Part shown: positions 52,795 to 58,132 of the stretch, in pieces
How positions within the stretch are numbered: the first letter of the stretch is position 1
Layout: each line of letters starts with the position of its first letter
Assembly (NCBI GenBank): GCA_902634555.1
Contig: CACPKO010000005.1
Location: 1 to 58,132 of the forward strand
Source of the DNA: Actinomycetota bacterium
GTDB lineage: Bacteria > Actinomycetota > Acidimicrobiia > Acidimicrobiales > MedAcidi-G1
DNA: 58,132 nucleotides
Direction: 5' to 3'
Program-made: the position numbers and the translations under genes
Notes under the pieces: model-generated
The model's input: only the letters and a program-made list of their open reading frames with translations
Told to the model about the DNA's origin: nothing
Database searches by the model: none

Positions 52795-53541
52795 ATGACA
52801 AATAATGAGGAATGCCCTCATGGGAAAGGTTCACCTGACTGGTGTAATCAGTGCACGCCACAGAATTCTGGTACGAGTCAGCAAAACTCAGATCATAATT
52901 TTGATTTAACTGATGCTTATTCGGTTGAAACTCCTGAAGACAATCTTGACTTATATGCTCGCTGGGCCGACACCTACGAATCAAGCTTTGTCGCTGACGA
53001 AGGTTACGTGTATCACCACGGTGTCGCCGCTGCATTTTTAGAAAATTTTATTTCGAGAAACGAACCAATACTTGATGTTGGTTGTGGGACAGGTCTCGTA
53101 GGCGAAGCCCTTTTAGCAAACTCTTCATTTGAGTCTGCTATAGAAGGTTTGGATTTATCTGCAGAGATGCTTGAATATGCACGATTGAAAAAAACCAGCA
53201 CAGGGCAACCTGTCTACAGCGATCTGCATGTTGGAGATCTAACCGCCACTCTTGATCTTCCAGATAACACCTACAGTGGGATAGTAAGTTGTGGAACCTT
53301 CACCCATGGACACGTCGGGCCGGAAGCTTTTGATGAGTTGTACCGTATTGCTCGACCAGGTGCACTATTTGCTATAGCAATCAACCCTGACCACTTCTCA
53401 AATCAAGGTTTTGAAACTCGTTTTTACAGTGACGTGTCATCCGGAACTATTACTGAACCGGTGTACAAAAAAGTTCAGGTTTACTCAACTGGGCCTCATG
53501 CTCAGGACAGATTCCCGATTGGAATCTTTCACTTGAATTAA
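52795..53541 (+). CDS. Class I SAM methyltransferase with N-terminal Cys/His knuckle
   Basis: A 248-residue protein. Residues 7-20 read CPHG-K-GSPDWC-NQ-C, a putative C-H-C-C zinc knuckle, followed by a polar linker. The methyltransferase domain starts near 50: LDVGCGTGLVGEALL near 93-107 is the SAM-binding motif I, GLDLSAEMLEYAR motif II, and GTFTHGHVGPEAFDELYRIARPGALFAIAINPD motifs III-IV. The acceptor is unknown; small-molecule or ubiquinone-type methyltransferases look similar. The same knuckle begins the next gene downstream. It starts the AT-rich right end of the window. Confidence 0.82.
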   Translation: MTNNEECPHGKGSPDWCNQCTPQNSGTSQQNSDHNFDLTDAYSVETPEDNLDLYARWADTYESSFVADEGYVYHHGVAAAFLENFISRNEPILDVGCGTGLVGEALLANSSFESAIEGLDLSAEMLEYARLKKTSTGQPVYSDLHVGDLTATLDLPDNTYSGIVSCGTFTHGHVGPEAFDELYRIARPGALFAIAINPDHFSNQGFETRFYSDVSSGTITEPVYKKVQVYSTGPHAQDRFPIGIFHLN

Positions 53542-53625: not shown

Positions 53626-53880
53626 ATGAACGATCTTGAAGAATGCCCGCATGGAATGGGATCTCCGGATTGGTGTGGGCTCTGCATAGGAACAAGCGTT
53701 CCAAGTGTCTATATTTCTGCTGGAGGAATGAAATACCATAAAGCTCCTGACTGTCCTGCGTTGATTGAAGGGCAAAGCATGGTCGACAACCCCTCTCCTA
53801 TCCAAACTGTGAACTGCGGTTCAGCAGCTGTAGCACATAGAAATCCGTGTAAAACATGTAAACCGACAAAGTGCCCCTGA
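53626..53880 (+). CDS. Small protein with two Cys-rich metal-binding modules
   Basis: An 84-residue protein. Residues 7-20 are CPHG-M-GSPDWC-GL-C, at the same position as in the neighbouring methyltransferase. Residues 26-82 are a second module, VYISAGGMKYHKAPDCPAL then NPCKTCKPTKC; the YHxxxC...CxxC spacing resembles the small metal-binding domain found behind some nucleases and Ada-like proteins. No catalytic domain is present, so it may be a DNA- or protein-binding adaptor. It lies 84 nt after the methyltransferase gene and 121 nt before the DpdC-like gene. There is no clear Shine-Dalgarno. Confidence 0.65.
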   Translation: MNDLEECPHGMGSPDWCGLCIGTSVPSVYISAGGMKYHKAPDCPALIEGQSMVDNPSPIQTVNCGSAAVAHRNPCKTCKPTKCP

Positions 53881-54001: not shown

Positions 54002-54946
54002 TTGGCAAATAGAACCATACGTGTAGTTGTTAGTTGCTCTAACAAAAAGAAACTTGCCGCGCCTGACGACCTAAAAATTAATAACTACCAAGACAATTTG
54101 TCTAAAAAAATTAAACTATGGAATAACAGGCTAAATAATCCTGCTACAAAACAGTATCCAGCTCTTGAGATGTATCAAGGCGCCCATTGGAGCGTTGCAA
54201 AACAAATACATGATTTCAGTAGTAAAGAAAATTTAGATGTTGAACTTTGGATTGCTTCCGCTGGTTACGGGCTAATTAAGGCCGACACACTAATTGAATC
54301 TTATGATGCAACTTTCGCTAAAGGTTCTAAAGAATCTGTGGCAGATGAAGGAAAAACTCAGTGCTGGGATCTTCTTGCTTTACGGAAACGGTCTCATGCG
54401 GCGAACTTGACTGCTTTAGCGGTAGAAAACCCAAATGATCTTCTCGCTGTAGCTTTATCTAGCACCTACTTAAAAGCTCTGGAAACTGATTTGTTAAATG
54501 TTGCGAGTCTATTGCCTCGTGAACAGTTGTTTTTAATCTCTGCTTCAGCAACAAAAAAGCAGTCTGAACTTTCTTGTTTTCATTTGCCTGCAGATGCGCG
54601 GCTCGTAAACAAACTTGGCGGCAACTTGATTTCTCTTAACGCTCGAATAGCTCTACACCTTCTTGAGAAAGAAACCCTGCATAAGTGGAACAGAAACAAA
54701 ATTGATAAATATTTTAATGAATCAACAAAGAACCAACTTCCGTTCAAAAAATTTAAGAGAGAGAAACTAACCGATGAACAAATCGTTTCATTTATCACTG
54801 AGCAAATAAGTAGAGCAACTAAGCAAGAGAACAAAACAGGTTTTTCTCAAACTCGACTCTTGAGACAACTTCGAGATACTGGTCATGCGTGTGAGCAGAC
54901 TCGATTCCGGAAAATCTTCGAGAAGACATTAAACGATAGGCCTTAA
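54002..54946 (+). CDS. dpdC: DpdC-like protein (YaaA/DUF6884-like N-terminal domain)
   Basis: A 314-residue soluble protein. The N-terminal domain (about 5-225) has VVVSCSNKKK at 8-17, a QYPALEMYQGAHW segment near 51-63, and ELWIASAGYGLIKADTLIESYDATF near 81-105. That pattern (SCS-K, Y-x-G/S, S-A-x-Y-G-L-I, Y-D) is typical of DUF6884/YaaA-like proteins. The C-terminal 80 residues are basic and helical. Immediately downstream is a DpdA-type transglycosylase (stop and ATG are adjacent), then a DGQHR protein. From memory DpdC converts preQ0 in DNA to the amide form, and I assign it mainly by context. The start is a TTG preceded by TTGAGG; the nearby ATG codons would cut into the conserved SCS motif. 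Confidence 0.62.
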   Translation: MANRTIRVVVSCSNKKKLAAPDDLKINNYQDNLSKKIKLWNNRLNNPATKQYPALEMYQGAHWSVAKQIHDFSSKENLDVELWIASAGYGLIKADTLIESYDATFAKGSKESVADEGKTQCWDLLALRKRSHAANLTALAVENPNDLLAVALSSTYLKALETDLLNVASLLPREQLFLISASATKKQSELSCFHLPADARLVNKLGGNLISLNARIALHLLEKETLHKWNRNKIDKYFNESTKNQLPFKKFKREKLTDEQIVSFITEQISRATKQENKTGFSQTRLLRQLRDTGHACEQTRFRKIFEKTLNDRP

Positions 54947-56188
54947 ATGGATTTTTTCTTTCCTGACTCCCAAGACCAAGTAAGTCCTTTTTTTGATTTT
55001 TTAACCGAAGAACACCCACTCCATAGAGTAAGGCAACGCGATGATCGCTACGCTCACGAAACTTTAAAAGTAATTCCTTACAACGGGATACTCATTTCAA
55101 AAGTAATTATTGACGGGATGAAAGAACGAACTGGACAATACTCCGAATCACAGCGTGATCGTATTTATAGAATTGGAGCACATAAATTCTTCCGGACCGA
55201 TATACCTAATGGCCCATCAAAAATCATGGGGGACTGTGGTGCCTTTGCTTATGTAGATGAAGATACTCCACCATATAAAATCGATGAAGTTATTAATTTT
55301 TACGAAAGTATTGGACTTGATTTTGGCATCTCAATGGATCATATAGTCCTTGATTACCTGACCGAGAAACAAAGAGACGCTGGTAAAGAGGCAAATCCAG
55401 AATGGGCTCGTCGCCAAGAACTAACCATTGAGATAGCAAAAGATTTTTTTAAAGAAGTAAAAAACCAGAAATGTGCCTTTACTCCAATAGGAGTTGCTCA
55501 TGGATGGAGCCCGGAGTCTTATAAAAAAAGCGTTAACGAGTTACAAAAAATTGGATACAGCCGGATTGCCCTAGGAGGTCTTGTCCCTCTTAAGACTAAA
55601 GATATTTTAGACGTAATTTCTTGTGTTGATGAGGTTAGAAAACCAAAAACTCAACTGCATTTGCTTGGAATCACTCGACCAGACTTCATGCCTGCCTTCG
55701 CAAAACTTGGCGTGACAAGTTTTGATAGTACGTCACCATTTCGACAAGCTTTTATGGATGACAAACATAACTATTACGTCTTGAATGACTCGTATGTCGC
55801 GCTCCGAGTCCCACAATCTGATGCGAACCCTGCACTCCGGCGACGTATCCATTCAGGAGAAATTGATCAAAAAGTCGCTAAAGAAGCAGAACGGAGATGT
55901 TTGGCAAGTCTTAGAGATTTTGATGCTGGCGTAGGGTCTATAGAAGATGCACTTGATTCTCTTCGAACCTACGAAATGATTTATGACGCTAAGAAACGCG
56001 ATCGTTCACTTTCTTATAGAAGAACACTTGAAGCTTCTCCTTGGAAGTCCTGTAAGTGTGGGGTCTGCGATACGGTTGGAATTGAAGTAATAATTTTTCG
56101 GGGTGCAGAACGAAATAAAAGAAGAGGGTTCCATAATCTATCGGTGTTTAGAAACCGACTCGATGAAAGTCTCTCCTCAACTAAGTGA
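54947..56188 (+). CDS. dpdA: DpdA, DNA 7-deazaguanine transglycosylase (TGT paralogue)
   Basis: A 413-residue tRNA-guanine-transglycosylase-fold protein of the DNA-acting DpdA group. It would exchange guanine in DNA for preQ0. Catalytic counterparts are D96 in GDCGAF (94-100; general acid/base region), G210-G211 in ALGGLVP, HLLGITRPDF near 238-247, and D260 in TSFDST as the nucleophile. The zinc site C369-K-C371-G-V-C374 with H396 is intact. SMDHIV at 129-134 is typical of DpdA rather than of tRNA enzymes. It begins directly after the DpdC-like stop and its 3' end is overlapped by the DGQHR gene. preQ0 synthesis genes (folE, queD, queE, queC) are not seen in the window. Confidence 0.88.
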   Translation: MDFFFPDSQDQVSPFFDFLTEEHPLHRVRQRDDRYAHETLKVIPYNGILISKVIIDGMKERTGQYSESQRDRIYRIGAHKFFRTDIPNGPSKIMGDCGAFAYVDEDTPPYKIDEVINFYESIGLDFGISMDHIVLDYLTEKQRDAGKEANPEWARRQELTIEIAKDFFKEVKNQKCAFTPIGVAHGWSPESYKKSVNELQKIGYSRIALGGLVPLKTKDILDVISCVDEVRKPKTQLHLLGITRPDFMPAFAKLGVTSFDSTSPFRQAFMDDKHNYYVLNDSYVALRVPQSDANPALRRRIHSGEIDQKVAKEAERRCLASLRDFDAGVGSIEDALDSLRTYEMIYDAKKRDRSLSYRRTLEASPWKSCKCGVCDTVGIEVIIFRGAERNKRRGFHNLSVFRNRLDESLSSTK

Positions 56189-57341
56189 TTTGAGCGGTAT
56201 GCCAAAAAAAGAACCAGAAATAAATAACTTACGTCTCCCCGCTATCGAAATAAAGCAGGGTCTTGAAAAAAGGATTTATGCTTTCGCTATCGATGGTAAG
56301 CAACTAACAAACATTGCCACAATATCTAGAATTCACAGAGATGAAGAAGGACTTGTGGACGGCTACCAGAGACCAGAAGTTCTGGCACATGTTGCCGAAA
56401 TTCGCCGATACCTCGAATCAGAAAACCCTCTCTTGCCTAATGCTCTTGTCGTAGCTTTTGACGAAAGCGTTCAATTTGAACAATCCCCCATAGGTCCAAA
56501 CGACGCTGACGACTACGCACAGGTTGGTGTTTTGACTATTCCTGTAGATGGGTCAATCCTCGAAGAAGAAAAACCTGGATGGATTGTTGACGGACAGCAG
56601 AGAACTGCGGCTATACAGGAATCCAGTCTTGAATCTTTTCCGATATCAGTAGTTGGTTTTATAACTAAAGATGTTGCTGAGCAGCGGGCGCAATTTATTC
56701 TTGTAAACGAGACAAAACCTTTACCTCGGCCATTAATCGATGAACTTCTACCTGGGGTAAATGGGGCCCTACCCAAACGTCTTGCGCTTCGGGTACTCCC
56801 TACACGTTTACTGGAACGACTAAATAACGATGAAGACTCACCACTTAGAGGAAAGATAAGGACTCAAACAATGCCTGATGGCATAATCGCTGCTAACTCA
56901 ATTATTCAAGGATTAAAGAGCAGCATTAGTGACGGATCTCTTTATTGCTATAGAGATTCCGAAACTGGGGACGGTGATATAGAAGCCATGTTAGATTTAC
57001 TGAAATCTTTCTGGTCCGCAGTTAGACAAGTCTTTCTGCACGAATGGGGTAAACCTTCAAGAAAATCTCGATTGATGCATGGCACGGGAATCCGAAGTCT
57101 CCTTTCTTTGATGGACGAGATTGTCGGTGAAGACGTTGACGAGTACCGAGAAAACCCACAAAGGTTTGAAGAAAGCCTTAGATTCATTGAACCAGTTTGC
57201 AAGTGGTCTAACGGGAAATGGGTGTTCGGTAGCGGAAATAACATTCATGAAAAAAAATGGAACGATATACAAAATCTAGGAAACGATAGAAAACTCGTTA
57301 CTGAAGTACTTGTGAAAAGATACCGAGAAATGTTGAAATGA
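56163..57341 (+). CDS. dpdB: DpdB, DGQHR-domain protein (DndB/ParB-like)
   Basis: About 392 residues. The signature DGQQRT stands at 143-148 (GWIVDGQQRTAAIQ), the DGQHR motif that defines DndB/DpdB-like proteins and resembles the ParB nucleotide-binding motif. RIHRDEEGLVDGYQRPEVLAHVAEIRRYL near 57-84 and QFILVNETKPLPRPLIDELLPG near 177-198 are further family features. DpdB acts with DpdA to insert preQ0 in DNA, using ATP. An earlier ATG at 56103 would overlap dpdA by 86 nt; the ATG at 56163 gives 26 nt and a later one at 56199 none. The stop codon touches the stop of the convergent next gene. Confidence 0.8.
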   Translation: MKVSPQLSDLSGMPKKEPEINNLRLPAIEIKQGLEKRIYAFAIDGKQLTNIATISRIHRDEEGLVDGYQRPEVLAHVAEIRRYLESENPLLPNALVVAFDESVQFEQSPIGPNDADDYAQVGVLTIPVDGSILEEEKPGWIVDGQQRTAAIQESSLESFPISVVGFITKDVAEQRAQFILVNETKPLPRPLIDELLPGVNGALPKRLALRVLPTRLLERLNNDEDSPLRGKIRTQTMPDGIIAANSIIQGLKSSISDGSLYCYRDSETGDGDIEAMLDLLKSFWSAVRQVFLHEWGKPSRKSRLMHGTGIRSLLSLMDEIVGEDVDEYRENPQRFEESLRFIEPVCKWSNGKWVFGSGNNIHEKKWNDIQNLGNDRKLVTEVLVKRYREMLK

Positions 57342-58132
57342 TCATCTGTTAACTAGCCATGATTCAACAGCGGAAATAAAACCAGCGGATCCTTTGCCTT
57401 TTATATATTTTGTTTCTTTATCTTTAGGACGGTTACCGCTAATACAGTCGGTGGCCGCATGCTTAGCAGATCCCGTACCTACAACCATGAGTGATGCTGT
57501 TCTAGCTAGGTTCTCGAGTTCTCGTGTAGCTTGTTTTTCCGAAGATGTAACAACTTGTAATCCTGGCCATGCCTTAACCAAAGTAGTTCGGGCCCGAGTT
57601 AACGCTGTTTCAGTTAATGAATACAGTCCAACTTTAATTTCTTGGACATTGATCTCTTTTGTTTCTTCAATTGATTCTTCAGGCAACCTGTCCCGAAGAT
57701 TTAATTCAGTTGCTAGGGCCGAGAGATGCAACCGGAGAGATCTTTCAATACGGCTAAAATACCCTGACATTGGTTGAAAAAGGTTTGAATGAAAAACTGT
57801 TGCCCTGCCCGTGTCCGGGCATGGGTGATCGATCACTACTTCAATTAAGTCTGCAGCCCACTCGACTGTGGATGGTGATGAAGACCCTGACCAACGGTAT
57901 TCCAAAGAATCAAGAACTTCAGAAAACTCTTCTTGATTTACTCCAGAAGAAATTATTCTTCTAGCTAACTGCCCCATCAAATCTAATCCAGAATTCGAAG
58001 TGTCATTAAAAGATAGATAAGTTAAAAGTGTTTCTTCTACCGGCAGGACTAAAGAGTAAAATTCATCAGGAACTGTCGATAGCCATTCATAGAGACTTGG
58101 GAGAGTACCTTTTAAATCAATACCGTCTGTGG
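57342..58132 (-). CDS. Unrecognised protein beside the dpd genes, C-terminal part (runs off right edge)
   Basis: The reverse frame stays open from a stop at 57342-57344 to the window end, giving 263 visible residues without their N terminus; ATG/TTG at 57977-57980 are internal. The first part is alpha-helical with LPSLYEWLSTVPDEFYSLVLPVEE. The C terminus reads LMVVGTGSAKHAATDCI, then KGKGSAGFISAVESWL. This V-V-x-x-G-x-x-x-HAA ... G-x-G-S-x-x-x-x-x-A-x-E pattern resembles the small Rossmann-like DUF2325 domain found at the end of several defence-linked proteins. It converges on dpdB with no gap. It may be another Dpd component such as DpdD, but I cannot confirm that. Confidence 0.6.
   Translation of the reverse strand, partial: TDGIDLKGTLPSLYEWLSTVPDEFYSLVLPVEETLLTYLSFNDTSNSGLDLMGQLARRIISSGVNQEEFSEVLDSLEYRWSGSSSPSTVEWAADLIEVVIDHPCPDTGRATVFHSNLFQPMSGYFSRIERSLRLHLSALATELNLRDRLPEESIEETKEINVQEIKVGLYSLTETALTRARTTLVKAWPGLQVVTSSEKQATRELENLARTASLMVVGTGSAKHAATDCISGNRPKDKETKYIKGKGSAGFISAVESWLVNR

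Follow-up and report, generated by a model that had tools for sequence, protein, structure and literature searches.

The window analyzed here, the whole 58,132-nucleotide stretch of contig C5, ends in a compact dpdC–dpdA–dpdB cluster, which raises the question of whether the host carries a modification-only or reduced Dpd system, as the original prediction had suggested, or a complete one. Dpd is a bacterial DNA-marking and restriction system that swaps guanine for a 7-deazaguanine. The reading favored here, with a probability of roughly 0.9, is that of a chromosomal Dpd island, probably complete, in an Acidimicrobiales-like lineage; it may run on scavenged preQ0. It is probably an ordinary full Dpd restriction-modification island of known type, split over two contigs, with an apparent lack of preQ0 synthesis as its sole unusual point.

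Positions 54002 to 57341 contained three genes on the forward strand: dpdC (54002 to 54946; 314 aa, TTG start, DUF6884/YaaA-like product), dpdA (54947 to 56188; 413 aa, DNA-guanine transglycosylase), and dpdB (56163 to 57341; DGQHR/ParB-like product, partner of DpdA), with dpdC and dpdA abutting exactly at 54946/54947. In the profile searches, the Dpd matches of these three window proteins had E values of 3e-172, 9e-136, and 2e-64, far beyond chance. The original prediction had named all three genes and proposed a profile search of their products; its identification proved right and is strong, since DpdA and DpdB passed the curated NCBIfam models NF041059 (573 bits, cut-off 200) and NF041060 (452 bits, cut-off 300), respectively, and DpdC was clear in PADLOC (216 bits, E 1.6e-64). 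The NCBIfam search of the DpdC protein gave no DpdC match, and its match to Pfam DUF6884/YaaA was below the cut-off. The DGQQRT signature claimed for DpdB was likewise seen, within the motif VDGQQRTAA. The dpdB reading frame as listed opened with GTG at 56103, and homology in the N-terminal alignment began only near residues 41 to 45, well downstream of this codon, so that ATG 56163 or ATG 56199 is more likely to be the true start. The predicted role of the dpdC product is the conversion of dPreQ0 into dADG in DNA. Promoter and terminator scans gave results at or below the shuffled expectation.

Just upstream of dpdC (53626 to 53880, forward strand) lay a gene for a small protein (about 84 aa) that was rich in cysteine and had no Pfam match; this protein started with CPHGxGSPxWCxxC, a motif shared with the methyltransferase at 52795, and the DpdH of the same genome (L087:14012) had a similar CVHG...CxxC stretch with GDS repeats after it.

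The TGT aspartates D96 and D260 and the zinc ligands C369, C371, C374, and H396 of the window DpdA, all said to be kept in the original prediction, were invariant across 60 aligned DpdAs, and the solved DNA-guanine transglycosylase PDB 7UI4 aligned with the protein end to end (E 5.7e-125). A tRNA-type TGT would be the other reading of this protein, which did match the general TGT family PF01702 (37.9 bits), but the bacterial tRNA Tgt model gave only 16.2 bits (cut-off 306.75) against 573 bits to DpdA, and a separate tRNA Tgt (402 bits) lay side by side with QueA (365 bits) on contig C7 of the same genome. The original prediction had singled out clustering with tRNA-type TGT enzymes as the outcome that would speak against it; in the tree, the protein starting at 54947 grouped with the DpdAs instead, a result that supports grouping within DpdA only, because the tRNA Tgt outgroup branches were too long for rooting. 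Taken with the separate Tgt on C7, this leaves the tRNA-type reading with a practically negligible probability.

The fourth gene of the region (57342 to 58130, reverse strand) was convergent with dpdCAB, as had been noticed from the outset, but the label DUF2325-like then given to its tail was insufficient (Pfam E 0.24): the gene corresponded to positions 456 to 704 of the 704-position DpdD model NF041061 (249 positions, 190.8 bits, E 5.7e-56) and was the C-terminal third of dpdD. Its frame was open up to the contig edge. Since contig C5 stops at 58132, dpdD is cut by the assembly, and nothing points to truncation in the organism.

The restriction half was found in the last 13.7 kb of contig C1 (74123 bases) of the same genome, which contained dpdE (766 bits, cut-off 500), dpdF (724 bits, cut-off 550), dpdG (138 bits, cut-off 80), dpdH (367 bits, below the curated cut-off of 450), a 245-aa gene between dpdH and dpdJ, and dpdJ (1144 bits, cut-off 800), whose frame was open to the contig end and broke off inside the gene. 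The 245-aa gene is a dpdI candidate by position alone: it had no family match in the libraries searched, and blastp against the open reading frames of the fetched loci found nothing. dpdK was not seen and would be expected to fall in the assembly gap. The restriction genes dpdD to dpdK were thus represented by the dpdD tail in the window plus dpdE, dpdF, dpdG, dpdH, and dpdJ on C1. The observation that no restriction helicase gene precedes the edge held for the window itself, but the dpdD tail was present there and the helicase genes were on C1.

A modification-only or reduced system, in which only dpdCAB would function and the dpdD fragment and the distant genes would be relics, accords with the last 12 kb of the window, where the dpdD tail was the only restriction gene, and dpd islands without restriction genes have been published (PMC11888242). 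This reading is nevertheless very improbable and was rejected because the window contains the dpdD tail and C1 contains dpdE to dpdJ: dpdE, dpdF, dpdG, dpdH, and dpdJ had intact reading frames and stood in matching order at the end of another contig, and the open dpdD frame argues against a relic. A contig break had produced the false picture of a reduced system, which is now corrected. Directly before dpdE on C1 (L087:1188-5376), genes were observed for a NUDIX-like protein, an ADP-ribosylglycohydrolase with a VWA-like tail, a dual-specificity phosphatase, and a histone-deacetylase-like protein.

The C1 genes dpdE to dpdJ were arranged and oriented such that they would connect to dpdD, and the ends of C1 and C5 are probably adjacent. 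Judging from model lengths, the missing part would be about 3.4 kb and would comprise the final third of dpdJ, the whole of dpdK, and the initial two thirds of dpdD. Two related loci displayed the arrangement in question: (i) G175, of the same order, had queC–queE–queD–dpdE–F–G–H–I–J–K–D (dpdI by position) facing dpdB–A–C and (ii) G421, of the same family, had dpdC–A–B facing a full-length dpdD (321 bits) and then dpdK (189 bits), where its contig ended. dpdD was on the strand opposite to dpdA in 31 of the 35 loci holding both genes and on the same strand in four; these gene-order counts cover 59 of the 62 loci, with L047, L050, and G347 left out because their DpdA was masked by a longer overlapping open reading frame.

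The two pieces could also be separate islands, or the C1 piece could be misbinned, given that the junction (dpdJ end, dpdK, and dpdD start) was absent from the assembly and that metagenome-assembled genomes may include foreign contigs. Against this, each piece stopped at a contig end, exactly where the other should start, and searches of the same genome gave no match to dpdD and no strong one to dpdJ on any other contig. The pieces were alike in composition (tetranucleotide correlation r 0.94) and differed alike from their own flanks, with G+C of 0.409 and 0.403 compared to 0.45 in the rest of C5 and 0.47 in C1 upstream. The genome, estimated to be 72.65% complete, had a contamination estimate of 0.1%, which argues against misbinning; both versions of this alternative are, taken together, quite unlikely.

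The single split island was compared with known Dpd islands. The Salmonella Montevideo island and its relatives (dpdA to dpdK; 7UI4) shared with it dpdA, dpdB, and dpdC with identical catalytic and zinc residues, as well as dpdD, dpdE, dpdF, dpdG, dpdH, and dpdJ. Relative to Salmonella Montevideo, the synthesis and restriction arms of the window's genome probably converge, no preQ0-synthesis genes lay beside either half, dpdI was positional only, and dpdK, along with portions of dpdD and dpdJ, fell in the assembly gap. The layout dpdC–(B)–A–B facing dpdD–K–J–I–H, the commonest among the fetched islands, was shared with the actinobacterial islands (Streptomyces, Nocardioides, Agromyces, and others; L006 to L058); most of these had two dpdB genes around dpdA and adjoining preQ0 genes, while the window had one dpdB and no such genes. 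G421 and L005, with short contigs, had dpdC–dpdA–dpdB with one intact dpdB as in the window, and in G421 the convergent dpdD and dpdK continued after it. Unlike the window, G421 had, in the interval from its intact dpdB to the convergent dpdD, what appear to be remnants of a second dpdB (L097:3480-4000), which suggests that the one-dpdB layout of the family arose by loss of the second copy. The actinomycetote islands described in PMC11888242 group with complete operons for synthesis and restriction.

The literature on dpd islands assigns the placing of preQ0 in DNA to DpdA with DpdB and the making of dADG to DpdC (PMC11888242, PMC12839542), and it regards dpdD to dpdK as a presumptive restriction arm with little-explored activity (PMC12707154). 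If this biochemistry carries over, DpdA and DpdB would exchange guanine in host DNA for preQ0, DpdC would turn the preQ0 base into 7-amido-7-deazaguanine, and DpdD to DpdK (the helicases DpdE, DpdF, and DpdJ, the ATPase DpdH, the phospholipase-D-like DpdK, and others) would attack unmarked DNA.

The supply of preQ0 is where the island appears to depart from its relatives. Nearby preQ0-synthesis genes are common in Dpd islands, though not required, and most of the fetched actinobacterial islands had queC, queE, queD, or folE2 beside dpd; none was found in the last 12 kb of the window or in the 5 kb preceding dpdE on C1. Searches of 19 family genomes gave no true QueC, and the best matches reached only 28 bits, compared to 216 to 263 bits for true QueC of other families of the order in the same search, and QueD had no match in 16 family genomes, eight of which were >90% complete. 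Both were likewise not found in the window's genome at its 72.65% completeness; its best QueC match (all ≤28 bits) lay in an MnmA-like protein and was not counted. Besides the Tgt and QueA on C7, the genome did encode a short QueF-like protein on C20 (77 bits to QueF-II, cut-off 87), and the presence of these three with no QueC or QueD suggests the use of external preQ0. Because the family has no recognizable QueC and QueD, we infer that Dpd may run on scavenged preQ0, in a genome only about 73% complete. Two points count against scavenging: no YhhQ-type preQ0 transporter (PF02592) was found in the window's genome and 12 others of the family, and preQ0 genes could, given this completeness, sit in the missing parts. 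Transporter families for preQ0/preQ1 other than YhhQ have been described, and further ones are expected (PMC11130926). When the window and three further stretches were searched for a preQ1 riboswitch, the sole Rfam match was a tRNA.

A stronger version, in which a full Dpd island works in a family unable to make preQ0, so that self-marking and safety from its own restriction would rely on preQ0 imported by a putative transporter, stands just short of even odds. If preQ0 synthesis is truly lacking, how the cell keeps its DNA marked with an imported precursor becomes a testable question.

The closest DpdAs were those of L005, an Acidimicrobiales metagenome-assembled genome (65% identity), and G421 (64%), and the three formed one supported group in the tree (100/99). 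No DpdD match was found in the genome of L005, whose dpd contig was, at 4 kb, too short for this to be informative. The original description of the host as a marine actinobacterium is consistent with this nearest named relative; the bacterial family of the window's genome is probably marine. Within the family, 2 of 48 genomes had a DpdA above the cut-off, and for the order as a whole the figure was 8 of 397, a rarity that fits an island often gained or lost, and the lower island G+C agrees with this. A probably complete Dpd island is thereby added for a small-genome actinobacterial lineage.

Two further gene arrangements were observed in related genomes. L077:9834-15213 (G158, same order) carried a gene for a 585-aa fusion of a DpdC-like DUF6884 part (weak, E 3.6e-4) and DpdA (315 bits); genes for a UvrD-type helicase and a PD-(D/E)XK nuclease came next, and dpdB was not seen. 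This locus looks like a compact, divergent Dpd-like system. In or close to their dpd islands, G066, G006, and L041 had a further dpdB-like gene adjoining an HNH nuclease gene.
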